A stretch of DNA of 64,000 nucleotides from Lunularia cruciata (Eukaryota > Streptophyta > Marchantiopsida > Lunulariales > Lunulariaceae), in the NCBI GenBank assembly GCA_948567375.1, contig OX419760.1:7998001-8062000 (forward strand). Reading direction: 5' to 3'. Below the pieces are notes generated by a model, which was not told where the DNA came from, did no database searches, and worked only from the letters and a program-made list of their open reading frames with translations. This document shows, one piece after another, positions 5,200-52,618 of the stretch. The first letter of the stretch is position 1, and each line of letters starts with the position of its first letter. A program made the position numbers and the translations under genes.

Positions 5200-6916
5200 A
5201 GAGGAATAAGTTGAAATATTATTACTCTAATCTATATTTTTTTATTGGGATCTAATTATAAAATTATAGAAATAATAAATAGAAAGTATGAGGGTTCATA
5301 ATTTTGTGGAGTTTTGAGAGTGAGTGTTTTCTTTAGTAATAGGAAACATGAGTGGATCTTGGTTATGGAGGTATGAGGAAATCTAGGATGGATCATCCAC
5401 TATTATTAGTGTTATTTTTGTGCTAGCTATTGTTTCACTTCCTAGTCTAAGCAATGTGAGGTAGACCATATTTAGTGTGTTTTAAACTCTTTATCATGGA
5501 AGCTAAGGGGTAAAGACCCATGTGTGAAAGATGCATAAGGGCTATGATTGGATTACTTCGAATGTTGACTTGAGGTGGATGATATTCAAGATCTTATACA
5601 TTATATCACTTTCTTTGTTGAGAAATTGCCAATCAAAGTGTAGAGATAGTTAGCACCCTAGGCAAGTTATATTCTAGGGTTACTTGGGAGTAGTTTTCTA
5701 TATGCATGCTTATTCCATCTACTTCATTATGCATTCAATGAGCTAGATAGGATTTTCACTCACCACTTCAGTATTTTGCACATGATCTCTTGGATGAGAT
5801 AGTATTGCTTTTTCTTCTTTACTCTTATGATGGATTTTTTATTATACTAGAGGATACTTTGCAAGGTAGAGAAAGAGGTGGTTGCTAGACTTTTTAGATT
5901 CAAGGCAAAGGATTGTGATGTCTTAGAAGAAAAGTTTTTTTCATAGGCTTTATCCCTTGTTAGGAGAAGTGACATTAGACGTTTTAGAATATCAATCTAA
6001 TGACCTGTTATGTCTTGATAAATTACTTTCTGCTCATGCATTGTTCACAAATCCTTTTCTCTGTTTTAGGGACTTTAGGATAATTTTGGTGCATCTTAAA
6101 GATTAGTTTTAGGTAAATGATCCATTTAATGGTTTTATGAAGTTATTCCAAGTGGTTTTGGTAGCAACAAAGAAGGAACTCCTATGTCAATTTGCTAAGT
6201 CTTAGGTGCTAGGTGAACTATATAGAGAACATTAAACCAATTGCTATTGGGTGGTCTTATCACTCCTTATTAGATATAACATTATCTTTTAAAATTGTTC
6301 TTATTTTTAGTAGGACCTTAGTAACATCCATGTAGTTAGATACTACATAGGAGGTTGTAAGACTATATCTCTTTTCATTATATCACTCTTAAACATCTAC
6401 CTAAATTGGGCTATCATGTAACACTTGTTGAAAACACTTTTAAGAACACTTTTGTGTGTCTATCTTTAGAGAGCTTAGAGAGACTAGTGGATCCTTGGAG
6501 TGAAAATAAGGGCTAGGGATTTTACCACACATTATTTAGATGCATCTCTTGCAAATGATATCCTTCACATGAATGACATTTCTCTACCAAGAGATACACA
6601 GATGGCACTTGATATAATCTCCTTGAGTATTGGTTGCTTGTCAACCAACCTACATACTTTGCATAGTTCTTCCTTCTCCAACCCTTCTATTATGTGTAAG
6701 AGCATTAAGAAGATTATAAGATTTTTAGTGGTGATATCATTGAACCTAGGAATTTTAAGAATGTGACATGAGACTTAAAACATAGACACATATATCTACC
6801 AATTTCATATGGAGAGGTAGGGCTATTATACATGGAACATGTGGCACTTCTAGCATTTCTGTCTAGTTTAACATCCTCAATACTTTTTCTTTCCTACTAT
6901 TTTATGGTTTTTGATA
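5200..6916 (+). pseudogene. RLE-1: decayed 5' part of RLE-type non-LTR retrotransposon
   Basis: This stretch aligns along its length with the better preserved copy at 24.0-26.36 kb. The match includes the 5' leader, the zinc-finger region (5505-5560 matches 24330-24385) and the C-terminal side of the reverse transcriptase, where an 88-codon open frame at 6500-6766 is recognisably homologous to RLE-2 codons around 25980-26210. The copy is full of stops, frameshifts and C-to-T / G-to-A changes. It stops at 6916 exactly where gypsy element A begins and resumes at 17892. The 5' limit is approximate. Confidence 0.75.
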
Positions 6917-7441
6917 TGTCATGCATATATACATCACTACATAACATACATTGCTATCAACATCATACACTATAGAAGCAAAACTCACACATAAGTCATA
7001 CATGAACTCTAATGCCACAATAATCAGATCATTTACAACTCAAATCATTTCAATACTTGATCTGATCCTCAACAATTTTCCAACAATAGGGCAGTGATTA
7101 CAATCAAGCCACACCCACTCTAGCTAAGAGACTCCAGGTGACACATGCTGGCTTTCTGTCCACTCTAGCCAAGAACTTGAAGACTCAACATCAGAGGAGT
7201 GAGCTCTTTGGAACTGCACTTTCAGGGTATACTCTTGATTTCAACCTGGGTCTCATCCCAATGGTCCCGATGGTGTGGATGGTGCAAGTGATAGTAGGCC
7301 CCACCATGGAGTAAGTACCCCAAACACAAAATCTGACTGTCAAAAAGTAATTTATGAGTAATTGTCAGAATGCCTCTAACTACTATCACTCGAACTCTAG
7401 TGTTTGAGCAATCTAAATGCAACACTACAAATGGCATGACA
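6917..7441 (-). repeat. 3' LTR of element A, with extra flanking repeat
   Basis: Positions 7013-7441 match the right-hand LTR (17444-17891). The outer boundary reads TGTCATGC at 6917 and the inner one ends GGCATGACA at 7441, giving inverted termini. The leftmost 100 bp (6917-7016) are absent from the right LTR but recur just inside the element at about 7443-7548, so this LTR is flanked by a direct repeat of about 100 bp. Confidence 0.7.
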
Positions 7442-7721
7442 ACTGTCATATGTATATACTTCACTACACAACATAAATCATTGTCAACATCATACACTAT
7501 AGAAGCACAACTCACACATAAGTCATACATGAACTCTAAAGTGCCACAATTGCTCCACTAGCTGGTGGTTAGGTCCCCCTAACTCCAGAGCCATCTACTC
7601 TAAGTAAATGGTATACCCTATGATAGGCAAAGATCAGGAGGCTGGGTGCTATGGAGCCTCATCGTTAGTCGCCTATCGCAAATCTATACCATATAAATGA
7701 TGAACTAGCTATAGGTCAAGT

Positions 7722-8102
7722 ACATCTAGGACATAACCACTATCCTTGAGGAACCACCATGAGAGGAGGGATCATACATGCCATATGCCATCCTCTTGAA
7801 CAACTATCACACACTAATATAGTAGCAGCTCCATTGGAAGAGCCGCATAACATACACTTCAAGCCTACCCGTACAAGTGCCAAGCTTGGGTCCATAGTAC
7901 CATCAATGTTTGGGAGATGGCATGGCACACAATTGTGCCCATGATCCTTCCAAACAACACCATCATGTCCTTCCAACACTAAGACTCCAAAAGGCAAAAC
8001 TTCATGCATTCTCAAGATAGTGCGGCCTGTCAAAACATCAAGTGTTGTCAATGCTGTCTGCTGTAGATATACATAGTTACCTGGATGAAATTGATGGATC
8101 AA
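7722..8102 (-). pseudogene. Element A polyprotein C-terminus with PHD finger
   Basis: A 120-codon open frame starts at 8102 and, after one stop (TAG at 7740-7742), the same frame completes the domain. The N-terminal half resembles the small barrel-like region after gypsy integrases (FHPGNYVYLQQ). From 7856 to 7722 it has a full C4HC3 PHD pattern: CMLC, CDSC, GWHMAC, then WLCPRC beyond the stop. PHD fingers usually bind the histone H3 tail. Here it occupies the place where chromoviruses carry a chromodomain, so a role in directing integration to particular chromatin is a reasonable inference. The stop lies between the sixth and seventh zinc ligands, so this copy could not make an intact finger. 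Confidence 0.8.
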
Positions 8103-8120
8103 GGGTCTATAACCTCCTCC

Positions 8121-8924
8121 TCAAATACAAGCATAGCATAAGGTATCCTTATGCTGAGCAATCGGCAAGTTCTCAAAGGCCATTGGCATCACTCTTTGAA
8201 AGATCTCTGCCCACTGAGAACATGCGCTCATCCATACATCTGGATCATCCAAGTCCAAAACTATAGTAGCATCTTGACAAATGGCTGCAGGTAAATCTGG
8301 ATCTCGCCCATAGAATAGAAAGTAAGGAGAGAAGGATGCTAAGGAGGCTTGCCCGCTGAACCAATAGCCCATGGCCAACCAAAGTAACTAGAGATCCCAA
8401 TCTCCTAAGTGGCTTCTCTGCAACTATACTTTTGCAATCCTCTCTTCACCATTTGAACCACTCTCTTTGCTATGCCATCTGCCTTAGGGTGATCTTGGGA
8501 GGTAGTACGATGATCAATCAAAGCCTTGTCACACAAGACCTGAAACTCTCTCAAGAACTATGTACCCTGATCAGTCAAAACCTCAGCTGGTGCACCAAAA
8601 TGTTTGAGAACCTGATCCAAGAACAAGTAAGCCGTCCCTTCACTAGACTTGTTAGGAAGTGCCACCAACTCAATCCACTTGGAGAAGTGCTCCACCATCA
8701 CCAAAACATATTGATGATGTCTCATGGTCAACAATAAAGGTCTAGCAAAGTCTAAACTCCAATGGTAACCCAATTTCATAATTGTTAATGGGTGTAAATG
8801 TGGCATAGGAGCATTGAATGATGCTCTAACTCAGTCACAAGCCACACATTTGGAAACAAATTGTTGTACCTTGGTCTACATACCGTGCCACCAATAATGA
8901 CTCTATGATACCCATATTTTTTGT
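8121..8924 (-). pseudogene. Integrase core of element A
   Basis: The minus strand encodes retroviral-type integrase pieces in order: a WWHGM motif with a C..C pair from the zinc-binding region (about 8900-8850), HWSLDFARPL with the first catalytic Asp, LTDQGT with the second (about 8575-8560), then a region near 8500 where the catalytic Glu of the usual AERVVQ-like motif reads Lys. The downstream part (8378-8121) holds the FYGRDPDLP motif typical of gypsy integrase C-domains. Frames change at least three times. The N-terminal zinc region is separated from RNase H by the D1 insertion. Confidence 0.75.
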
Positions 8925-10510
8925 TTTGTTAAAGTTTTGAAGAAGAAGTGTATTGAGGAAGCCAAATTACAAAGGAAAGAATGGACTTAGGTGTCTTTAG
9001 AGTAAACCCAAAGAATTTGACCTTGAGCCGGGAATCAAAAGTACCCAAATGGGGTTACAAAAAGACAAATCCAAAGAAGTGCATCTTCATAATGGGAAGA
9101 AAAGGCCAATATGAAGATGATGTACAACCTCTCTACATGTTAGGCCAATCAAGAACATACACTTCAAGAAATGGCAAAGGTAGGAGAAGAGTACCTTGAC
9201 AATGACACAAAACCAACATGCAAAAGAAATGGGAGTCAATTTGAAATCAACTAAAGAATGACTGCACTTTGAGGTACTATAAAATTGCTATTGTGAAGAG
9301 GGAAATCAAACATGTCAAGTAGATACCCTATTCCTTGGAGTAGTTGTCTTGTAGTAATGCGCATCAAGAAGCCAATTGAGAGTGAAATTTTCCAAAGTCC
9401 AGAAGGGGTTAGAGTGTCACATCCAAGAGAGGGGATAATCTTCCAGTGCCAAAGAACTAGTAAGAAGATCATGGCAAAGAAGACTAAGAACGCACTTGCA
9501 ATGAGGAGTTTTGCAATTTGGCGATTAGATGTCATAGCTAGGATCAAAGTCTTGAATAGACTTTGGATCACATTCCTAGTATGGAACTGGAATGTCAGTT
9601 TTCCAAGCGTCATGGCAAAGATAGTTGCCAGTAATTGTGAGGAAGACCCCAAAGTTATGGAGAAGAGAGGAAAATCCGGCTCAATGGATTGAGTCAGATT
9701 GGAAGTTAGTATTGAGGAGGAAGTAGGAGAGGCAACTGGGGTTACTTTCTATAGGAAGTGCGATGTTGCAAAAGAGGCTACAGAAATTCAAAATTTGTTC
9801 TTTGCTCCACGGACCAACCATGGCTACAAAGTGGAGTCCTATAAAGACCCGATTAAGCGGAGCATTATGGGAGTGCTCATGGCCATGTTCAAGCCCAAGC
9901 AAACAACATACATGAACATGCAATAGGCGGTCTTCTTCCATAAGATGTTTGCAGGAGTGAAAGTGAACTAGGCAAAGTGTTTCCATTAAAGAATACGGTA
10001 GATGATTGTCAATTGGAGAACCAATTTTCCACCACACTACCTCACATTGTTTGTAGTGCACTTCTACTTTGGATTAAATCTATTGACAATGGAGGAGAGG
10101 CAACATATGGTTTTGCATTTCCATCCCAATCTTTGACTAGAAGTGGACAAAGAGGAGCAATGATACATTTTACAACTGCAAGCTAGTGACGACCATTTCA
10201 TCAGAACAGGACAAACGGAGATAGTGGAAGGACAAAGTCCAAAGACAAAGAAGCGGACTAAAACCAAAGAGGCAGCCTTACCCTAGCCACAACACAAGAC
10301 CCAAAGACTGAATCCGTGAGGTAAGAAGGTGGTGAAGGATGAGACTTTGGAGACAAAGTCTAAAGGAGAGACAAAGTCAAGAAGAGGAGACTCCAAAGAA
10401 GCTGAACTCACATTACAGAGTGAGGAGTCCGGGAGTGAGAGTGAAGGTGAAGAGGAGGTCCAAAAATCAATGTAGATAGAAGAAGATGAGGTGTTCCATG
10501 TAGCAATTGG
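8925..10510 (+). mobile_element. D1: truncated family D repeat inserted in element A
   Basis: This plus-strand block aligns with 51345-52940 (copy D2), and its ends coincide with interruptions of element A's coding sequence. Broken open frames at 9312-9692 and 9699-9926 correspond to one frame at 51908-52381 in D2, sharing the motifs NLFFAPRT and MAMFKP. It stops in the acidic Glu/Ser-rich region and lacks D2's coiled-coil part. No LTR or poly(A) ends were found, so how it moved is unknown. Confidence 0.7.
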
Positions 10511-11330
10511 TGTATACTTTCACTCTACCATCCTCCCATACACGCAAAAGGTGTTTTCTCTCCAATCTGAACCGCCTAGCTTGCTAAAGGACATAATCTC
10601 TTTCCTTGGCCCTAATTTTGCCACCCACAACACTAGTGCAACAATAGTCCATCACTAAGACATCATAATGAATGTCTCACTGAACTATACCACTATCTCC
10701 ACTCTTTGGATCTGTGACCTCAATAACTCCTCATGTATGTGATGAGAGAGATACCACCAAAGTCTCAAAAAATATACACAAAAAGGTAGATGCATGCCAA
10801 CCTGGCACCATCTCCTCATCTAAGTCACCATGCTAATGTGCTCTGGTCTGATCTTGCTGGTTGGGACATGGGTTTCTACTCAGCCCATCTGCATCACGGT
10901 TCACCACTCCATGTCTATGAATAACCGTGAAATTATACTCCTATAAAATCAGAGCCCATTGTCCAAGCTTCCCTAAAAGCTTTTCGGACTCCATCAACCA
11001 CTTCAATGGCTGATGATCAATGATGAGAGTAAAGGGGTTACCAAATAGGTAACATCAAAAATGTGCTACTACCCAAATTTCTGCCAAGCACTCTCTCTCA
11101 TATGGACTATACTTTGCCTCCACTGAATTGTTAGAGCAACTAGCATAGGCCACCATAACTCCTTCCCCTCAGCATCATGTTGGGTGAGCACTATTCCAAG
11201 CCCCAACACACTCAACTCTGTGTGAACTTGAAATGGTCATCCTCTAATCGATCTCCTTAAAATAGGAGCATATATCAACCTCTCTTTGAGCTCTACAAAA
11301 GCTCTCTCTTGCTCATCTCCCCAACATCAC
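10511..11330 (-). pseudogene. RNase H domain of element A
   Basis: Reading the minus strand gives GIVLTQHDAEGKE, then a YSPYERECLAEIW motif, IIDHQPLKWL and, near 10880, NRDADGLSRNP. This is the usual order of a Ty3/gypsy RNase H domain (strand-invading Asp residues, the tether motif, and the terminal DALSR-like motif). The segment after it (10510-10700) corresponds to the linker towards the integrase zinc domain and is cut by D1. Several stops and frameshifts make it non-functional. Confidence 0.7.
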
Positions 11331-11425
11331 TCATATGTAAGCTTGGTTAGCTTTGTCAAGGCCTTGGCAATGGCACTAAATCATCTAACATAGTGACTAT
11401 AGAAGTTTTCCAACCCAAGGAATGC

Positions 11426-12320
11426 TCACACTGTGCTAACATCCATAGGTTGAGGAATACATGCAATAGCCTCCACCTTGGTATGTTGAACACCAAGTCC
11501 TCCAGGGTAGATAGTGTGACCCAAATACTCAACCTTCTTGTGGAAGAACCTACATTTCCCAAGATGCAATTTGAGTCCATGAAATCTCAACCTCTCAAAC
11601 ACCTCCAACAATTGTCTCTCATGGTCCTCCACAGTAGTGCTATAGACCAAAACATCATCAATATAGCACCAAGCAAAATCCAATCCAGCTAGGATATTTT
11701 CCATGACCCTTTGGAGCTTAGCAAGAGCCTTCTTAACCCAAATGGTAAGAACTTCCATTGATATAACACATCCTTGCCGTGAGGATCAATAGTCCATAGT
11801 GCTGACTTGGACTTATCCTCCTCCCTGATCAGCAACTGATGATATCCTACTCAAAGATCCAAAGTACTAAAGACCTCTACATGCCCAATTGCATCAAAGA
11901 TCTCCTCTAGTGTAGGCATGGCATACCAATCAGCCCTAGCTTGTTGGTTGATAGGACGGAAATGTTCACACATCCTCCTATTTGTGTAATTACCATGCAT
12001 ATCCTTCTTGGTCAACATCACTATCATTGATGCATAATCTCCATGTGAAATCTCTACTAAACCAACCTCAAAAAAGTCACTACTCCGGCTTTGAATCAAT
12101 GTCCTCTCCATATCACTATATCAATAAGGACATCAAAAAATTGGTGTATTGCTAGTATGCTCAACTTGTATACTAGGTCCCTTTAAAGCACCCAAATCCT
12201 TCATATTGAAGGCAAAACAACTTGTGTAGCTCCTCAAGAACCTCCAAACCCTTTGTCTTTCCTCTCCTATAAGCTTGGGTCCAAGATTTGGCTTCCAAGT
12301 ATCCTCTATAACTATCATAG
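11426..12320 (-). pseudogene. Reverse transcriptase of element A
   Basis: The open frame at 12133-12318 carries a segment typical of the region before RT (CFAFNMKDLGALKG). The frame at 11851-12111 has the fingers and palm start, ending in the FSTLDL motif that holds the first catalytic Asp. The frame at 11426-11758 has YIDD at 11665-11654, the catalytic box (YVDD class), followed by LHLGKCRFF and VEYLGHTI. The order and spacing are those of a Ty3/gypsy RT. Frameshifts separate the three frames. It directly follows the methyltransferase region in the polyprotein order. Confidence 0.85.
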
Positions 12321-12580
12321 GAGTAGAAGATGTATTGAATAGCTACTACACTAGACCCTTGGGAGCAGTAGTGTCATGCTCCCAAGCACTAGAGGTCCCA
12401 ACCTCAATGTGAAAAACTCCCTCCACTCTGGTTGCAAGCTCCACTCGTCCTGTAGCAACATCCCAAGTAGACCAAGGGTGTAATCCAAGTAGCCCATGCT
12501 CACCTGGATGGACTCCAAGTAGACCACTCTCCCTAGTAGCTACTGGCTATGTCCCAAGAATACCATGTCCACTTGGTCCA

Positions 12581-13746
12581 TCACCTCCCAGCATGTGCCT
12601 GAATAGTCTCAATAGGCACAAGGCTCACAAGTGTCCGAGTGGTGATGCCTATCAAGTGCATCTTATGTTGCTTTGCCATGCCAAGGCTCACAAACCAGGT
12701 CAAACAATTTAGGCCCATAGCTTGACCTAACACCTGACGCATAAAGACCTTTGACACTGTTGGAATAATGGTAATACCGGTGCAAAAGCCCATTGCTTGG
12801 TCTTTCTTATCGGCATTGAGCTCCACCGACTACTATAACTATGAGTCCCAAACAAGTCTATGTACTCCCTCTCAAAAAGCATGAGAGCCTAGGAAACTCA
12901 TAAGTGTGGGCAAAGTGGCTTTGGGCTGTCCAACTAGGTTCACCACTACCATAGGTAACCTATTAGTCACTACCACCGTCTAAGACTGACGCCCAACATC
13001 CAAGATGTCATCAACAAGGATGTGGTCTAGTTACTGAATCTCATCATATGCATGCCGTAAAACATCTCTGGGTAAGAGGTTTGTCCACCAAAGACGAAGA
13101 TGATGAGCCCGTGATCCCACTCTGGCTGCGTCTAACAAAACAACAAGTCCTATCTAAGAATGGACTTGATGTGTACTCACCACCACCCGAGTACAAGAAT
13201 CACCCATCAAAGGGACATTCTTTAATATGTAAGCTAGAGAAAAGATTGTTGAACTTGGAGATGTTGTAGTATCTATAACATCTCCCAAAACATACCAGAA
13301 TAGGGATCTTGAAGACCCAAACCTCGGCCAACACGTGTATATCTCTGACATTGCCATCCCAAAATCACCAAATGAATAAGCCCATACCGCTCGAGATCAT
13401 GCACCCCCAATAAGGAAATGTCTATTGGTAAGACCTTTTGATAACCCTTGATTGTTGACATCAGTAATAACTCTGGATATTGATAAGCCAAGTGTGCCAC
13501 ATGATGTAGAGAGACTTGCCTAGCAGTCTCATTTCTCTCCACATACAAGTACCTTTGTACTTGTATACCCGCCTTTAGGACTACAGTTGGTCTGATGCTA
13601 ATCCCACCAAACAACTCCAATAGACATACTCCTTCTATTAGATTTTGCCAAGCAATGAGTGTAGTATCCAAAGGTGTCAAAGTAATTGACATCCTCACAA
13701 TCATCTCTTGATGGTAAAAGGCTTCACTCCAAGCTTGCTGCACCAA
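12581..13746 (-). pseudogene. DNMT3-like cytosine-5 DNA methyltransferase domain of element A
   Basis: Lying between protease and RT, the minus strand spells the motifs of a C5 methyltransferase in order. ELFGGI (motif I, cofactor binding) begins at 13617. GWQCQ (motif IV, catalytic Cys at 13350-13348, normally Pro-Cys) is at about 13359. LKNVP (motif VI, normally Glu-Asn-Val) is near 13222. LDAARVGSRAH, resembling motif VIII, is near 13130. A C-terminal frame at 12826-12581 with MGFCTG and RQVLGQAMGLNCL resembles motifs IX-X. The motif VIII to X wording is closest to the DNMT3 type. Family enzymes transfer methyl from S-adenosylmethionine to cytosine C5. The Pro before the catalytic Cys and the motif VI Glu are both substituted, and there are frameshifts near 13275 and 12900, so this copy is dead. 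Confidence 0.82.
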
Positions 13747-13847
13747 CCAATCTGCATGCTAATGCAATGCCTCCTTTGAACTCCACAATGGAACATCCAA
13801 GGTGGATAGAACAATCTCACCTGTACTCCAAATCCGAGTGATCTCCT

Positions 13848-14402
13848 CTAGTATTGGAGTATCCTTTGCATGGGCGTTCCACTCCAATAAGTCACTAGGC
13901 CAAGTAATTGCACCATTGAAAGCTGAAATTGATGCTGCCATGGTCTCAAACTATAGTGAGCCAAGATTGCTACTAGTGAAGTGTACTGGTAGGTGACATA
14001 CTCATCCCTCACCAGATTGCCAACCTGGAGGCTATCTCCTCCCAATAGTCAATACTGAAACCCATGGGGTATAGCACGGCTCCACCAACTAGCACATCAT
14101 ATGACTCGGCTATTGTTGCAATAGCTTGAGCTCTCATCACCGAGCTATCAATCAAGTGACTAGGCTGAACCTGGACAACAAGCTCTCCACGTGTGATGTA
14201 CTGTGTTGACCCACCCTCTAGGGATGTTTGGATCTGAAATAGACACCTCTCCACATTGGTCTTCCGTAACTCCATACCGATAATTGCAACCTTCCTTAAC
14301 ATAAGGGTGCACCAAAGCACTAGAGTCTAATAAGACTCTTTGTGGTGTATAGACCTTCCTTGAAGGTGCCACTAAATAGAAAATCCCCCTTTGGTTATCC
14401 AA
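13848..14402 (-). pseudogene. Aspartic protease of element A
   Basis: The frame starting at 14402 contains RVLLDSSALVHP, with the catalytic Asp near 14327 and the usual DSG/DTG reading DSS. The overlapping frame 14320-14009 contains SYDVLVGGAVLYPMGF, the second conserved part of a retropepsin fold (the hydrophobic strand and flap-proximal segment) in this type of gypsy element. A frameshift separates the two. In the polyprotein it precedes the methyltransferase. The Gly-to-Ser change alone would be expected to kill the protease. Confidence 0.65.
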
Positions 14403-15051
14403 TAGGACAACATCAGGTGTAAATTGGGCTCTCTCAAAGGCCAGTCAGGTTGGCAACTCCTCTAATCTAATAGTTGATGCCTGCCATAGCCACTAGTAGT
14501 TGAGCAAATTCCATGCTCCTCAACCAAGTCAGCTCCACCATCAACTACCTCTATTCTAGTAGTGGGGATCACATCATCCCTACTCTCACAAAGTGTGGTA
14601 GCCAATTGGAACACTTGGGTTGGGTCAACTCCCAATGTAAACATGTCATTGGCTGAAAACAAAGGGCACCACATAATCAGCTGAGCCGCCCCCAACATCA
14701 TGTTAGAGTCAATATGTATGGTAGCATGTGGCTGACTAGCAGGTAGTCTATCATGCACCCCATCACCACCTACCACACATGCATTGGGACGTCTAGGAGC
14801 CATGGATGTTGTTTGCAATGCCTCAGAAAGCATGAAAGATGGGGGAAGTCTAACCTCTCTCCCAATTTATCCTCTCTATGAGTCCAACTCCATTGATGCT
14901 CCTCTAGGCTTTGAAGCATATATTGCACTCCTATTCATTGTTGCAAATGCATCCACCTATGTTGCTCCGCACATGAAGTCCAATGCATCTCTATCACCAG
15001 CATATGAGGTAGAAGCCTCAACACCCAAATCTGATCTCCTCTGAGCTATGG
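14403..15051 (-). pseudogene. Gag-protease linker of element A
   Basis: A minus-strand open frame at 14833-14462 lies in phase order between the gag zinc knuckle and the protease. It has no recognisable domain. It probably encodes the linker of the polyprotein. Confidence 0.4.
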
Positions 15052-16244
15052 CTATGCTAGCCGATATTGCTCCAATTGCTCAATGCAAGTAGCCATGGTT
15101 GTATCAGAAGTAAGAGCAGGTACTACACCTCTACTAGGTGTAGATCCTCTACCACCACCTCTACCACCTTGTTCTCCATGAACTAGAGCTCCTCTACCAC
15201 TTGCCATAATAGCCCTACCACTTTGTAACTTTGGGTGTAGGTCAAAGCACTGGTCACTAGTGTGACCAAATCTATGGGCAATGCTCACACTATCTCTGTG
15301 CTAGTTGTGATGCACCAGAGGTATCAAGTCCGTTGCCTTAAAGACACTCTCTCATGTGATGAGGTCCATCACAAGTCAAACAAGCAACACCACTACTCAT
15401 TGGCTGCTATTGACCCAAAAATGAAGGTAAGGGTCTAACTACAATAGGCCCTCCACTCGCTCCATAGGACCTAGGTTGTCCACCCTATTCTCAAAAACCA
15501 ATTAGACATGCTGCACTCTAGAAGAAGTCATAGTTGTGGATGAGGTCTCCCTACCAAATTCAGATGTCACCACTCTCTCCTCCACCATGTTGAGCTCAAT
15601 ACGCTCAGCCAAGCCAAAGACCACTGCCAAAGTGAGCAAAGTAGCATGTAACAACGTAGCATCACAAACTTGAAGTCTCAACTCCCTATCCAATATCCCA
15701 TACCAAAACTAGACTGCTTGGGCCTTAGTAACTCCCTGAGTGAAATTGATCAGCCGCCTCATGCAAGTGTATGCCTTGCATAGGCTCTCTTCAACCTTTC
15801 TGAGGAGCTTGCAATTGCAAGCTCCTCAGCGTGTTAGTCTACATTCCTTGGTAGTTCTGCCTCAAACACTAGATGAACTCAACCATGGGATTAAACCTTG
15901 ATACCACACCACCTCCTATAGGAGTACCTCCACTCGTAGTAGCATTATCTCCAGCTAGTGCACCTCCACTAGCTCCACCAACGCTACTCGAGCTAGAACT
16001 TGTGGGTACGGCTGATATACTCTTGGCACCCAAGGCTGAAGTCAGGAGACATAGTTCGGAGACCAATGTTGTTCCATAACTCAATCTCCTCCAAGTGAGC
16101 TCTCTTGAACTCATGGAAATTGTGTATTGACTCACCCTCCAAATGGTGAAACAACCCCTTCCATGCCATGAAGGGTGTAAACAAAGTTGGGGTTCCGCAT
16201 CTACTGTAGATCACACCAACTATCAAACTTCTAGATGAAGTCAT
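15052..16244 (-). pseudogene. Gag region of element A
   Basis: The frame at 16244-15993 carries capsid-like sequence (AWKGLFHHLEGES, ELWNNIGL). Near 15290-15247 a CCHC zinc knuckle is seen as CEHC, a one-base frameshift, then HRFGHTSDQC. It is followed by a Gly/Arg-rich tail (15190-15120) typical of nucleic-acid binding. Gag would package the element RNA. The knuckle is broken by the frameshift. Confidence 0.65.
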
Positions 16245-17443
16245 CTAACTTAATGGTACCCACTATACCAGAGTAATGCCTAGGGCCCTTGGAGGCCCCA
16301 TAAATGATGTCCATGTCTCACAACAATGGTGCGGACACGCCAAGTGCACTCTCAATTGGATCAACTATTATGTCAAACTCCAACTCAAAGTCAATCTCCT
16401 CCCTCACTAGGACCTAAGATACAGGCTGATATTGAGCAACACTCTAAGTAAACCCACTTCATATTGCATGGCTATCTCATTTGGAATCCCCAACAAACTC
16501 TATCGTGACAAAGTAACTGCAAACCGCCAACTGCAAATCAAAACCACAAACTACAACTGCAACCCCACCAAGTGCCAACACCACCAAGTTCAAACACCAC
16601 AAACCAAGCACCACCAAGTGCCAACACTAACAGAACACTACCCATTAAATGTAACTCTAACTAAGACAACTACACTAAGGGAAGTGCGACTTGTAACCTG
16701 CCATCACAACACGCACTCTCACAATTTGCAAGTCATCACTTCCTACCTCATTTGAGAGAAATAAAGACAATCTAATTGGTCATCACTCCAGCCTCACTAC
16801 CGAGAGCACACCAGAGCACCAACACTCTAAATTTAGGGCACCTCACAAAAACACGGTGCACAAACAAGAAGAGAGTGGAGGGGGTCCAATCACAAGAAAA
16901 CTAAACAAAACCCTCCATCTCATAAAGCAACACCAGATTGACTCTGTCACCATTTGGCATTTGATATAATTGGAGTACCTATCTACTTCTTGAGCTACGA
17001 GGATCATCAAGAATGGGATCAAAGTTCTTCTTGCCAACATTTGACATAAACCCTTCACAAAATCTGACATTAAATTTGATGTAAATCCCTAAAATTGTTT
17101 GACCGCCAAATCATTAGCTAACTCTTCACTCAAGCCAAATTGGAAAAATGGGTTTCGTCCAATCTCTAATTCATGAGGATTTGCTCCCAACTCCACCTTC
17201 AATTTCACTTTGTGAGCTCAACTTGCAACAAATTGGTTCTACTTTCACCTCTTGAGCTCAAAATCACAATTACCGCTTGAAAATTGCTTCTCTTTGGCTC
17301 CAAATTTTGCTAGTGCTTCCACAAACAATCTCTCTAAGAGAAATCTGAACTACTCAATCAAGACACCATGATCCACTGAGCTTGGAGATACCACCAATAC
17401 TCATCGTTCCCGCACTTGATTTCCCCATGACTCACTTCTCTAA
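16245..17443 (-). other. Leader and gag N-terminus of element A
   Basis: Between the 5' LTR and recognisable gag. On the plus strand 16510-16640 is rich in CCACCAA-like repeats (TTGGTGG on the coding strand). The sequence just inside the LTR (minus strand from 17443) does not match the initiator-tRNA primer site seen in families B, so a different primer tRNA or a mutated site is likely. Confidence 0.45.
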
Positions 17444-17891
17444 TGTAATCAAATTGTTTACAACTTGAATCAGCTCAAATCAGATCAGTACTTGATCTAA
17501 TCCTCAACAACTTGCCAACAACAGGGCACTAATTACAATCAAGCCACACCCCCTCTAGCTAAGAGACTCCAAGTGACACTGGCCGTCTTTCTGTCCACGC
17601 TAGCTAAGAACTCAAAGGCTCAACATCAGAGAAGTGAGTTCTCTGGAGTTGCACTTCTAGGGTATAATCCTGATTTTGACCTAGATCTCATCCCAATGGT
17701 CCCATTGATGGCACACCTAACGGTGCAGATGGTGCAAGAGATGGTGAGGCCCACCATGAAGTCAATACCCTAAACACAAAATCTGAACGTCTGAAAGTAG
17801 TCTATAATTAACTGCCAAAATGCCTCTAACTACTATCACTGGAACTCTAATGTCCAAGCAATCTAGATGCAACACTACAAATGGCATGACA
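17444..17891 (-). repeat. 5' LTR of element A
   Basis: It matches 7013-7441 over its length and runs TGTAATC to GGCATGACA on the plus strand, that is TG...CA termini. It abuts RLE-1 sequence at 17892, where GATA repeats the target found at 6913. Confidence 0.8.
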
Positions 17892-18325
17892 GATAAGCTA
17901 AACTGAGAGACAAGCATGATGGACATGGAAGAGAGAGGGAACTTTTCTTGTTTGCAAAGAGATGGTTGTTACTCTTATGTACAAGATGATCTTACGTCTT
18001 TTATTTGCCTTCTAATTGTAATAGTGATTGTAGTTTTCCTTAATAGATCAACAAATTCAACAAGCTTTGTATTCTCTTCTAGTTGACCTAACCCTTCCTT
18101 ATGCTATTAGTTTATGTCTTTGCTCTTGGTTTAGTAAGGATCAAAGCTCTTTGGATTGATAAGCATTTGCATAGCTTTGGTCCACCTATCTACATCTTCA
18201 TTACTTACTTGTGAGTATAGTACTTACCTTAGATATAATAGTTGTCCATATATTTTTTTTCACACTTGGAAAGGCAACAAAGGAGTCCCATAATACCATC
18301 AAAGATATCATGTTTACAGTGCTAC
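17892..18325 (+). pseudogene. RLE-1 middle segment
   Basis: Continues RLE-1 exactly from the point interrupted by element A (corresponding to 26363 in RLE-2) through the zinc-binding C.C motif region; 18180-18220 closely matches 26720-26760. A stretch of about 55 bases present in RLE-2 is deleted near 18160. It ends where a family C LTR was inserted. Confidence 0.75.
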
Positions 18326-43859: not shown

Positions 43860-45195
43860 CCTCATCAAGCAATGGTTGATCAGATAGTTCAAGAGTTTGC
43901 AGATATATTTCCGAATGATCTGCCGAATGGATTACATTCCGATTGTGGTGTGCCCTTCAAGATTGAGTTAGTAGACCAATCTATCGGCTCTTACCAAAGG
44001 AGTTGGAAGAGTTGCAAACAACACTTACAAAGTTGTTGGAGAAGAAATTCAAACGATATAGTACCTCTCCTTGGGGAGCACCGGTACTATTTGTTCCAAA
44101 GAAGGATGGAGGACTTTGTTTTTGTATTGATTATCGTGGGTGTAAAAGACCGAGATCAAGGAGAGAAATAGGAGAATGGAAACTCACATTGGGACACTTG
44201 AATGTGGGAAAACTCAGAATGCCTAGCATGAGCTTTTTATTTATAAAGCGGCTTGGTTTGGTATTTATAAGTAGCATACAAAACCCTTGAGAAGCTTCTC
44301 AAGAAGTTTCCTCAAGCCGCTTTCTTAGAATGCAAGCCAAGTTAACTAGGAAGCTTCTCAAGAAGCCTTCTTCTAGAAGCTGCCTACTTGGCGTGCAAGC
44401 TAAGCTAGTTGGAAGCTTCTAGAAGCTACTTACTTGAGGTGCAAGCTAAGCTAGTCAAGAAGCTTCCTAAGAAGCTTCCTAGATACTTCCGGAATATTCT
44501 AGGCTAATTTGTCTTATGTGCTACTTTGTAAGCCCGACTAACTTCATCACTAAACTCCATATTGTTACAATGGGCTCAATGAGCAAATAGTGAAGAATGC
44601 ATATCCCTTGCCTCGGATTGATGACTTGCTTGATCAATTGAGTGGAGCACAATACTTTTCCAAGTTGGATCTTTGCAGTTGCTATTGGCAAATCCCCATT
44701 GATAGGGAGGATGTACAAAAGACTGCCTTTCATACAAGGTATGGGCATTTTGAGTGGAGAGTTTTACCTTTTAGGCTCACTAATGCTCCAGTAGTCTTCA
44801 TGGATCAGATGCATTGGGTGTTGGATGGACTATTGGATCGGTATGTGGTAGTGTTCTTGGATGATATCTTGATCTATAGCAAGAGAGAGGCGGAACATGT
44901 GAATCATATGCAAGAAGTCCTAAGACGACTACGACAATGGAAATTTTACTGTAAAAAGTTGAAGTGTGCTTTTTGGCACAAGGAAATTAACTTCTTGGGT
45001 CCTAAGATCTCATCGGAGGGGATCAAGATGGAAGAAGAGAAAATCAAGGCCATTACTGAAAGGCTTACTTCAAAGGATGCTATAGAAGTATGGATATTTA
45101 ATGGGTTGGTCAGTTTCTACCAACGGTTCATCTATTATTATGCTCATGTGGCTGCACCATTGACCAACCTCTTTGAGAAGGACTCAAGCTTCTAG
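43860..45195 (+). pseudogene. Reverse transcriptase of element B, split by a solo LTR
   Basis: The N-terminal part ends at 44140 with [15 protein letters not shown]. The gene resumes at 44570 with an LNEQIVKNAYPLPRIDDL-like sequence. The second part is open from 44590 to 45195 (201 codons), with YFSKLDL, FRLTNAP and VVFLDDILIYS, an intact FLDD catalytic box. A frameshift near 44000 lies before the first half. Without the LTR and this frameshift the domain would be complete. Confidence 0.85.
44141..44569 (-). repeat. Solo LTR of family B inside element B
   Basis: 429 bp, reverse complement of the B LTR, from TGTAAAAG to TTGTTACA. The flanking 5-mers GTGGG (44136-44140) and ATGGG (44570-44574) form a target duplication with one mismatch, and removing the LTR plus one flank restores a continuous RT codon frame across the site. 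Confidence 0.9.
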
Positions 45196-45640
45196 TGGAA
45201 CACCAAGCACAAAGAAGCATTCCAAAAGTTGAAACATATGGTGTCTTCAAGACCCATTCTTCAACCGTATGATCCTAAACTACCCAGTGTGATTGATTTT
45301 GATGCTTCTAACTTTGCAATTGGAGCCGTGTTGCAACAAGAATTCCTGGATGGACTACATCCCATTGCCTTTGTGTCTTTCCGACTCAATATGGCTGAAA
45401 GAAACTACTCTGATTGAGATTGAGAACAACTTGTAATGGTATATGCCACCAAGGTATGGAGGTATTACCTCTTGGGGAAACAAGTGATCATGCAAACTGA
45501 TCACAAACCATTATTGCAGACCTTACACTTGGAACAACTCCAATTGTTTGACATCAAACTTGAGTACAAACCGGGTCTATTCCATGTCATCCCTGATGCC
45601 TTATCACGGCAACCTGATTTGAAGTCTCTTCTTCTCATCA
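45196..45640 (+). pseudogene. RNase H of element B
   Basis: VIDFDASNFAIGAVLQQ (first catalytic Asp), then VMQTDHKPL and PDALSRQP give the standard gypsy RNase H. A TAG at 45195 and TGA stops at 45415 and 45421 interrupt it. Confidence 0.75.
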
Positions 45641-45779
45641 TGGCAGCAATTACAATGGTGTCAATTGACTCTAAGGTCCAAAATGAGTTTCAATTATCTC
45701 TGCAACAAGATCCCTTCTTCCAAATGGTACATGTTCATCTTATAGCATGCAACAAGGAGTACAACACCTTCTCCTTCAA

Positions 45780-46800
45780 GAAAGGTCTTTTTTCCATAAG
45801 GACTGGATCTATGTTTTAGCCAAAGGTAATCTCCAACTTATACGCCTTCAAGAAGCCCATGATTTACCAATAGCTAGTCACATGGGTGTGGACAAGACCT
45901 TGGGTACCCTCTAACACCCATGGTGGTAGCCCAACATAACACAATGTGTTTGAAAGTTTGTCCAATTGTGTGAGAGCTACCAACGTAATAAGGCCAACAA
46001 CCAAAAGCCAAGTGGACTCCTTCAACCACTCCCCATTCCATCCACTTGATAGGAACACGTGAGATTGGATCTCATCACATCCTTGCTCAAGACAAAGCAA
46101 GGACACACAACAATTGTGGTATTTGTGGATAAGCTCAATAAGCAAATCCACTAAACACCAACTTGTGATACCGTAGATGTTCCAACCTTAGCACAAATCT
46201 ATGTCAACAATGTCTTCAAGCATCATGGGATGCCATGTGTACTCATCTCCAACCATGATCCTTGCTTCATTGGGAAGTTTTGGCAAGCACTCTTCCAAAT
46301 ACTCTGCACCAAGCTTTCTTTGACCATAGCCTATCATCCTCAAATTGATGGACAAATGGAACGTGAAAATTTTACCTTTGCTAGGATATGCTACGTGCCT
46401 TTGTCAATGTCCATCATACCAATTGGGATGAATGTCTTGCAATTGCAAAATTTGCCTACAACAATTCCAAACAAGCAAGCACCAGATTTTCTCCTTTCTT
46501 TCTCAATTTTGGCCAAGATCTACTTGTCCTAGATTCTCTTCTTGCTCCTCTCCGTCTCAAGTCCCTCATACTTCAACCTTCTTGACCACTATCTCCGAAT
46601 CTCTCCAACAAGCCAAATCTCACCTCCTTGTTGCTCAGATAGTCAAAGACAATATGCAGACCACCATCGTTATGATCTTACCTTTCAAGTCGGTGATAAA
46701 GTTATGTTATCCTCTAGTAATCTACCCCTCCCATTTGATACCCAAGTTTGTAAACTTGCCCCTAATTGGATAGGACCCTTTGATGTCATCCAAATTGTCT
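45780..46800 (+). pseudogene. Integrase of element B
   Basis: In shifting frames: a zinc-binding HHCC region (EAHDLPIASHMGV ... LCESYQ, 45850-46000), a core with DLITSLLKTKQGHT, ISNHDPCFIGKFW (usual SDRDPRFTSKFW; an Asp is changed to Asn) and YHPQIDGQMERE (46330-46370, catalytic Glu retained). Stops and frameshifts are frequent. Confidence 0.75.
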
Positions 46801-51907: not shown

Positions 51908-52618
51908 ATGGCAAAGAAGGTCACAAATGCTCTAGCGGTGCAAAGTTTTGCCATTCATAGGTTAGATGTTGTAGCAAGAAATGAAGTCTTGAATAGACTT
52001 CGTATTACCTTTTTAGCATGGAACTGGAATTTCAATTTCCTAAGAGTCATGGCAGAGATAGCTGCTAGTAATTGTGAGAAGGGCCCCAAAGTTGAGGGGA
52101 AGAGAGGGAATCTGGCTCGATGGACTGAGTCGGATTGGAGGTTAGTGTTGGGGAAGGAAGTAGGAGAACCGACGGGGATCACCTTCTATTGGAAGTGTGA
52201 TGTTGTGGAAGAAACGGCAAAGATCCAAAATTTGTTCTTTGCTCCGAGAACAACAAATGGTTACAAGGTGAAGTCCTATTGGGACCCGATTAGGCGCAGT
52301 ATTGTGGGGACAATTATGGCCATGTTCAAACCAGAACGGACAACTTATGTGAACATGCAGCAAGCGGTCTTCTTCCACTAGATGTTTATAGGAGTAAAGG
52401 TGAATTGGGCAAAGTGTTTTCACCAACAAACAAGGCAGATGGTGGTCAATTGGAGGACAGGTTTGCCTCCACATTATTTCACACCATTTGTAGCACACTT
52501 CTACTTCGGGTTGAATTTGCTGACAATAGAGGAGAGGCGTTGCATAGTGTTGTATTTCCATCCTAATTTAAGGCGGGAAGCAGATGAAGAACAGCGACAA
52601 TATATGAGACACATGTGA
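51908..52618 (+). pseudogene. Family D core protein
   Basis: Two frames, 51908-52381 and 52382-52618, are separated only by a TAG (52379-52381) and read on as one protein of about 236 residues. Sequence shared with D1: VLNRL.ITFL.WNWN, TESDWRLVLG, NLFFAPRT, MAMFKPERTTYVNMQQ; and with D3: WAK...HFY. The conserved Trp-rich pattern suggests a real ancestral domain, perhaps a gag-like or plant-transposon-associated protein. I cannot name it. Confidence 0.5.

Follow-up and report, generated by a model that had tools for sequence, protein, structure and literature searches.

Can a retrotransposon of a land plant carry, among its own genes, both an enzyme that writes DNA methylation and a domain that reads histones? 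The question is raised by a stretch of 64,000 nucleotides of Lunularia cruciata (assembly GCA_948567375.1, contig OX419760.1, positions 7,998,001 to 8,062,000 of the forward strand), hereafter called the window, in which an earlier note had described, at positions 7722 to 14402, a single Gypsy polyprotein joining a DNMT3-like methyltransferase to a PHD finger. As judged from the sequence, this locus, named element A, is a decayed Gypsy-type retrotransposon with the order gag, protease (PR), DNMT3-type C5-cytosine methyltransferase (MT), reverse transcriptase (RT), RNase H (RH), integrase (IN) and PHD finger. DNA methylation usually has transposons as its targets, but element A carries a predicted writer, the MT, and a likely reader, the PHD finger, and may mark its own DNA and choose its landing site. 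The domain order proposed in the note from protease to PHD was borne out by tblastn with sister copies. The extent and the single polyprotein had to be given up: element A is longer, occupying positions 6917 to 17891 of the minus strand with the sequence TATC duplicated just outside, and a UAG codon at 12348-12346 separates the MT from the RT. The parts of the window copy, placed domain by domain by tblastn with pieces of better-kept sister copies (those named L012 and L013 among them), are as follows.

17892-17895, no strand: 4-bp target site duplication TATC on the 5′ side of the element, the same four bases being found at 6913-6916
17446-17891, minus strand: repeat A1, start of the element (TGTC...); blastn with repeat A of copy L013, 77.7%
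15508-15944, minus strand: gag remnant; tblastn with sister-copy gag
14027-14393, minus strand: retropepsin-like protease remnant; tblastn, 85-86%
12662-13632, minus strand: DNMT3-type C5-cytosine methyltransferase remnant; tblastn with the open MT of copy L012, 72-77% identity, with profile and fold taken from sister copies and relatives
12346-12348, minus strand: in-frame UAG dividing the gag-PR-MT from the RT-RH-IN-PHD coding region, from the reading of the junction
11357-12165, minus strand: reverse transcriptase remnant; tblastn; Pfam RVT_1, 2.9e-15
10923-11341, minus strand: RNase H remnant; tblastn, 78-79%
8896-10514 (about), no strand: insertion of later date, about 1.6 kb long, that interrupts element A between RNase H and integrase; no match to copy L013
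8280-8902, minus strand: integrase remnant; tblastn, 80-81%; Pfam rve, 2.3e-9
7875-8276, minus strand: integrase C-terminal region; tblastn, 81%
7719-7874, minus strand: PHD remnant; tblastn, 88%; Pfam PHD, 9.1e-7
7444-7550, minus strand: repeat B1; blastn, 88.8% to B of L013
7022-7441, minus strand: repeat A2, 2 bases after B1; blastn, 73.4% (match 7441-7036, the end being placed at the start of B2)
6917-7021, minus strand: repeat B2, end of the element (...GACA); blastn, 87.9%
6913-6916, no strand: 4-bp target site duplication TATC on the 3′ side of the element

The coding regions of the window copy are broken by many stops and frameshifts, and its repeat pieces are 84-85% alike. While RVT_1, rve and PHD score, Pfam was silent on its own MT in the 10 pieces submitted, which we attribute to decay. 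Better-kept copies were found when the genome of the window (566 Mb) was searched with the C5-methyltransferase profile PF00145 at E ≤ 0.001. At least 123 places were obtained (123 of the 2161 candidates scored), most of them spanning about profile positions 48-120, within open frames of 97 to 1428 codons. Six of these places read as host methyltransferase genes or exons of the DRM, DNMT3-like and CMT/MET1-like kinds, including L020, L021, L001 and L004, and the host's own DRM-type genes and DNMT3-like exons can serve as a reference for the MT of the element. Of 20 loci fetched, 17 are copies of the element and three (L020, L021 and L026) have no match to any of its eight searched parts. The MT is present in all 17 copies at 91-97% to the query L012 (one copy being L012 itself), and so are RT and RNase H; gag and protease are found in 16 (not in L025) and PHD in 15, the stretch of L014 being too short to reach it and the integrase of L018 being broken. 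Fourteen copies have the complete set of eight parts. The earlier note had linked its proposal to the absence of copies lacking either part: PHD is kept in 15/17 copies and the MT in 17/17, a count restricted to copies picked by MT profile, with any MT-less copies of this genome falling outside it. The profile evidence it had called for was obtained, PF00145 matching in sister copies; in the open copy L013 the match has an E value of 1.5e-7 over profile positions 48-120 of 324, and PHD scores 2.2e-10.

The remainder of the coding sequence is that of a Ty3/Gypsy element. The pol order is RT-RNase H-integrase, with a DDE integrase (rve) and an H2C2 zinc motif, and in a sister copy RVT_1, RT_RNaseH, Integrase_H2C2 and rve score 3.3e-31, 4.1e-35, 2.6e-18 and 1.2e-12, respectively. 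The predicted model of a relative (pTM 0.36) matches the foamy-virus and Ty3 intasomes. The sequence LLDSGAQ of open copies is a retropepsin-like protease motif.

In open copies a first coding region, gag-CCHC-protease-MT, runs up to one UAG and is followed in the same frame by CAG CCA and RT-RNase H-integrase-PHD. The UAG is found in 36 of 36 junctions, which comprise the 17 copies, the window and 18 of another 20 short stretches (the remaining two missed the junction), and CAG CCA follows it in 33, the exceptions being L017, L025 and the window. This context agrees with the consensus CAR-YYA, described as a leaky-stop context in plant viruses (PMC2194720); for the tobacco mosaic virus context of this type (CAA UYA), 32% readthrough in plants is reported (PMC2754532). 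Public proteins that include only gag or PR and a full MT (n=28, many of them predictions) end a median of 97 residues past the MT (10 to 183), which fits a stop codon after the MT.

The terminal repeats are those of another kind of element. A1 (449 bp) lies at the 5′ end, and at the 3′ end B1 (107 bp) is followed by 2 bases, A2 and B2, with a G-run immediately before B1. Of the 15 copies examined, 14 have B1 and B2 (L027 is the exception), and the two are 98-100% alike in most (93% in L012, 96% in L024). The 2-base spacer is GC in 10 of the 12 copies with a readable B1 end and AC or GT in the other two. The element begins with TGTC and ends with GACA, and B1-GC-A2 reads GACA-GC-TGTC, as two joined ends with a 2-base spacer would. 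Plain long terminal repeats (LTRs), first assumed from the repeat pairs, were dropped when the same kind of sequence was found past the 3′ repeat in 8 of 8 copies. Target duplications of 4 bp flank 10 of the 12 copies with both ends (not L012 and L024), which together with the window copy makes 11/13; in L017, which has two A1 starts, the second one was taken, and no A1 start was found in L015, L025 and L028. Element A thus has the short target duplication and TG...CA ends of Ty3/Gypsy elements without their two plain end LTRs, and the split direct repeats of DIRS/PAT elements without their tyrosine recombinase, no match to which was among the Pfam matches of three frames scanned (integrase was found instead), and without their lack of a target duplication. 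It unites two replication styles that are usually separate, one with the split repeats known from elements with a tyrosine recombinase, the other with an integrase and duplicated target sites.

The MT is best described as DNMT3-type, a term that refers to its motifs and predicted fold rather than to proven descent. Its motif order is unrearranged, with the catalytic Cys and ENV. Among solved structures DNMT3A matches best (2e-9), DNMT3 chains take the first 29 places of 55, and DNMT2 chains reach E values of only 0.03-0.1. The structure prediction that the note had suggested was done on a Calypogeia relative, in which the MT occupies about residues 313-640 with a pLDDT mostly of 80-96 and dips to 52; this model has DNMT3A as its best fold match (E 1.2e-15, target TM 0.83), and all 50 fold matches shown are DNMT3. 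Among 151 retroelement MTs the catalytic Cys is present in 148, the motif VI Glu in 149 and two Arg in 148 and 149. In a tree of 115 rows the retroelement MTs form one clade (99, SH-aLRT) against DNMT3 and DRM pieces. The claim of a DNMT3-like enzyme stands for motifs, best solved match and fold.

A capture of the MT from a phage, bacterial or other viral C5-methyltransferase, in place of a plant DNMT3, is a serious alternative, if less probable than not. When the element's own MT was compared by blastp with one set of proteins, five DNMT3-like phage MTs gave 79-89 bits and an HhaI-type viral MT 74, against 60 for a DNMT3A half-domain and 38 for a host DNMT3 exon. A quick tree of 35 rows with viral enzymes placed the retroelement clade (99) with a support of 90 beside two viral MTs of HhaI type, while DNMT3 and the phage MTs stood apart. 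One of the DNMT3-like phage enzymes itself matches DNMT3B at 9e-31; it is annotated as a hypothetical protein of a Pseudomonas phage (MT118304.1, 41172-41978; L069) and is a clear DNMT3-like C5-methyltransferase. The phage records matching the element's MT at E 0.001 number 326. Against a capture from phages or viruses, the scores of the eukaryotic rows are lowered because these rows consist of half-domains or single exons, the deep branches are long, and the two viral rows had been found with patterns derived from retroelement MTs. Furthermore, two chlorophyte-type MTs reach scores with DNMT3A that equal or exceed, approximately, those with the phage enzymes. Viral contigs were also considered as a source of relatives of the whole element and set aside: the MT scan led to two loci (L047 and L048), which are other C5-methyltransferases without the remaining element domains, and the integrase-PHD scan of these contigs gave none.

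The PHD finger, for which the note had suggested a role like that of the DNMT3 ADD domain, is instead an ordinary one located on the integrase tail. The C4HC3 zinc ligands are kept in 197-199 of 199 rows, all picked by PHD profile. Its nearest solved relatives are CHD4, KMT2D, KMT2C, KDM5B and DPF2, together with PHF21A, KDM5A and ATXR5, several of which are known to read unmodified H3K4; no BPTF, ING or TAF3 chain is among the best 60 of 87 solved PHD matches. The putative position of the Trp of the H3K4me3 cage of ING and BPTF is Gly in 181 of the 199 rows. Judged from its relatives, the domain is a candidate reader of the H3 tail, probably not of H3K4me3.

Relatives exist well beyond Lunularia. 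A first search yielded 48 proteins, scored among the 7989 candidates sharing most words, those with an organism name being from Marchantia polymorpha, Calypogeia fissa, Sphagnum fallax and Closterium; two further searches (one with 112 proteins, the other with 307, of which 120 were listed) added Monoraphidium, Cymbomonas, Haematococcus, Volvox and Tetrabaena. Domain profiles gave an MT in 177, a PHD in 198 and both in 121 of 255 proteins, shares that reflect selection by MT or by integrase-PHD and are not frequencies. Named proteins with both domains come from Monoraphidium (P0087), Volvox (P0200), Tetrabaena (P0244) and a Marchantia gene model (P0145, with part of the MT); those of Calypogeia, Sphagnum, Closterium and Cymbomonas have the MT without PHD and those of Haematococcus PHD without the MT. 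The pairing, recurring in sister copies and distant relatives, is not due to chance, and MT-bearing Gypsy elements extend from one alga to the wider green lineage, including the model plant Marchantia.

Two gene orders were found, one with PR-MT followed by RT, as in element A, and the other (type B) with RT-RH-MT-IN-PHD in one frame. Independent MT captures for the two orders are not favored: there is a single MT clade (99) in which the RH-MT-IN order forms one subclade (96), and an integrase tree of 84 rows nearly repeats the split (98). Both trees are quick ones, with partial outgroups in the MT tree and 40 of 119 type-B rows in the integrase tree, and the protein P0140, with the MT before RT, falls on a long branch inside the type-B integrase group, which speaks against a single capture. 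Among the new public proteins picked by integrase and PHD (112 of the 120 listed among 307), a sample less biased than the copies picked by MT, 54 span RNase H to integrase; the MT lies between these domains in 14 and before RT in two, and is not in that protein in 38. Four of the latter are inside the second-order group, which suggests loss of the MT, and in the remaining ones (38 minus 4) the MT is likely encoded in a separate upstream protein, as in element A. Two chlorophyte-type proteins (P0039 and P0042) have a tail after PHD with motifs resembling a second SAM-dependent methyltransferase (DPWAGTGT and TSPWF in P0042, degenerate in P0039); neither tail has a Pfam match at E 0.01, and that of P0042 has no solved match below E 0.5. 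Some relatives (P0049, P0056, P0077, P0128, P0185 and P0115) list a further profile besides PHD, namely PF01585 (G-patch) or, in P0115, PF00385 (chromodomain).

Taken together, these features can be explained if element A is taken as an aged member of an autonomous split-repeat Gypsy family with a Gag-side MT, self-methylation, PHD-guided integration and a circle route, an explanation to which, as a whole, we give an even chance. Most ribosomes would stop at the UAG to yield Gag-PR-MT, and a minority would read through it to add the RT-IN-PHD extension. As the UAG lies between the MT and RT, the MT would be made with Gag; produced in Gag amounts and assembled into the particle, it could methylate newly made DNA of the element, either before integration or during it. 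The PHD finger would guide integration by reading the H3 tail, probably in a state other than H3K4me3 to judge from its relatives. The cDNA, with B-GC-A at both ends, would be circularised, and the circle would be opened within one repeat: of its two palindromic GACA-GC-TGTC junctions, integrase would cut one with a 2-base stagger and leave the other in the interior as B1-GC-A2, and the layout A1...B1-GC-A2-B2 would result. The UAG provides a cheap and testable prediction on which particle protein the MT travels with.

The selection and decay of the copies bear on this explanation. Pooled pairwise dN/dS is 0.42 for the MT (8 stop-free of 16 full copies; bootstrap 0.33-0.59), 0.35 for RT (6/14 copies), 0.33 for RH, 0.43 for gag, 0.28 for PR, 0.41 for IN (5/14; bootstrap 0.25-0.97), 0.42 for the C-terminal region and 0.39 for PHD (13/15 copies; bootstrap 0.20-0.81). 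On these estimates the MT is constrained about like RT, and MT and PHD are both well below 1, in agreement with the purifying selection on the MT that the note had proposed to measure. A1 and A2 are 88.2 to 99.1% identical in 12 copies, although the comparison spans just 301 bases in L027; the match is limited to 77 bases in L010, and none was obtained for L015, L018, L025 and L028. With C taken as ancestral and L010 and the window left out, transitions between A1 and A2 in 10 copies amount to 59/362 at CG, 47/526 at CHG and 45/1360 at CHH; the much decayed pair of the window has 4/8, 13/30 and 34/157. In MT-RT, the window copy has transitions at 59/136 CG (43%), 79/236 CHG (33%), 57/779 CHH and 44/1122 A/T sites of copy L013. 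Old copies appear to have been CG and CHG methylated like usual plant transposons.

Several observations weigh against the explanation of self-methylation and Gag-side packaging. The dN/dS values derive from stop-free copies only, which may bias them down. CG and CHG decay of old copies would mean that self-methylation does not obviously protect the element. Conservation of the UAG is weak evidence of selection, because the sister copies are so alike: the junctions are mostly 95-99% identical, and a common UAG could be inherited from one ancestor. No TGG primer-binding site lies directly after A1 in the copies printed, leaving priming unexplained. The Pro that precedes the catalytic Cys in the PCQ motif is Pro in 78 and Glu in 63 of the 151 MTs. 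The four PHD proteins of the second-order subclade that lack the MT indicate that it is dispensable there. Finally, the isolated DNMT of KnitGypsy-Dnmt3, a related element discussed below, did not methylate yeast DNA, a result described by the authors as inconclusive since human DNMT3B failed too (PMC5890265).

The MT could instead be a silencing or damping device: integrated copies would be methylated by the MT itself or by the host together with it, which would limit the spread of the element and the harm to the host. The decay of C-to-T type between A1 and A2, concentrated at CG and CHG relative to CHH, and the high proportion of CG and CHG cytosines of L013 that are changed in the window copy are in favor of this idea, which we consider unlikely nevertheless: CHG decay points to host plant methylation, possible for any plant transposon, and de Mendoza et al. 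name damping without a test (PMC5890265). Still less probable is that catalysis by the MT does not matter and that the domain has a structural role in the particle or binds nucleic acid there. Its absence from four proteins of one PHD-keeping subclade would agree with such a role, but the near invariance of the catalytic Cys, the motif VI Glu and the two Arg goes beyond the needs of a scaffold. DNMT2-type C5-methyltransferases act on tRNA, and the element has no evident tRNA primer site, so that methylation of RNA, either its own genome or the primer tRNA, could be imagined; with DNMT3, a DNA enzyme, as best solved relative and fold, and DNMT2 chains far behind, we hold this to be very improbable. 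Chance fusion, an assembly artefact or a misread host gene, to which the badly decayed window copy with its Pfam-silent MT pieces might alone have pointed, is practically ruled out by sister copies on seven contigs, long open frames, target duplications and relatives in other species.

Returning to the explanation by self-methylation, part of it has precedents. Gypsy capture of a methyltransferase is already known in a charophyte: KnitGypsy-Dnmt3 of Klebsormidium nitens is described as a Gypsy element with DIRS-like repeats and a Dnmt3-related MT in its Pol polyprotein ORF, with Ka/Ks < 0.2, and its MT is presented as having been acquired independently in the lineage of K. nitens (de Mendoza et al. 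2018, PMC5890265). Compared by description only, element A shares with it the Gypsy domains, the Dnmt3-related MT under purifying selection and the DIRS-type repeats, and differs in that its MT is on the Gag side of the UAG, a PHD finger ends the integrase, 4-bp duplications are present and relatives occur in chlorophytes and bryophytes. The word PHD is absent from the main text of that paper, and Klebsormidium is not among the organism names of our relatives, most of the listed proteins being nameless. SymbioDIRS-Dnmt3 and SymbioLINE-Dnmt of Symbiodinium are likewise retrotransposons bearing DNMTs, of element classes other than that of element A, and SymbioDIRS DNMTs are reported to methylate CG in yeast (PMC5890265). 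DIRS elements encode a putative MT domain, and those of PAT type (Pat1, Toc3 and Kangaroo) are described as having split direct repeats A1-B1-A2-B2, a tyrosine recombinase and no target duplication (PMC4157794); element A has the split repeats in common with them, but with a DDE integrase and 4-bp duplications. Chromoviruses, also Ty3/Gypsy elements, have a chromodomain at the place of the integrase where element A has PHD (PMC3605345). The note had suggested that the pairing may be undescribed. In the open-licence PMC literature, including passages of PMC6338049, PMC12344493 and PMC6453930, no paper was found on the MT-PHD pairing, on the PHD finger, UAG or target duplications of such elements, or on members in bryophytes and chlorophytes; the capture as such is published.

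A bolder extension, which we regard as unlikely, is that these elements represent an ancient green-algal and bryophyte class of integrase retrotransposons with a circular permuted intermediate, a Gag-packaged DNMT3-type enzyme encoded before a leaky UAG, methylation before integration and a PHD finger that steers integration by reading unmodified H3. If this were true, split repeats and DNA methyltransferases would co-occur in unrelated retroelements, DIRS and the lineage of element A, hinting that the methylase serves the circular intermediate.

Two further observations were made in the window. Part of the insertion inside element A (9718-10017) is 76% identical to another stretch of the window, 52155-52454. 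At 44566-46364, on the plus strand, there is also a second Gypsy pol that is only a distant relative, with RT, RNase H and integrase at 29-34% identity.

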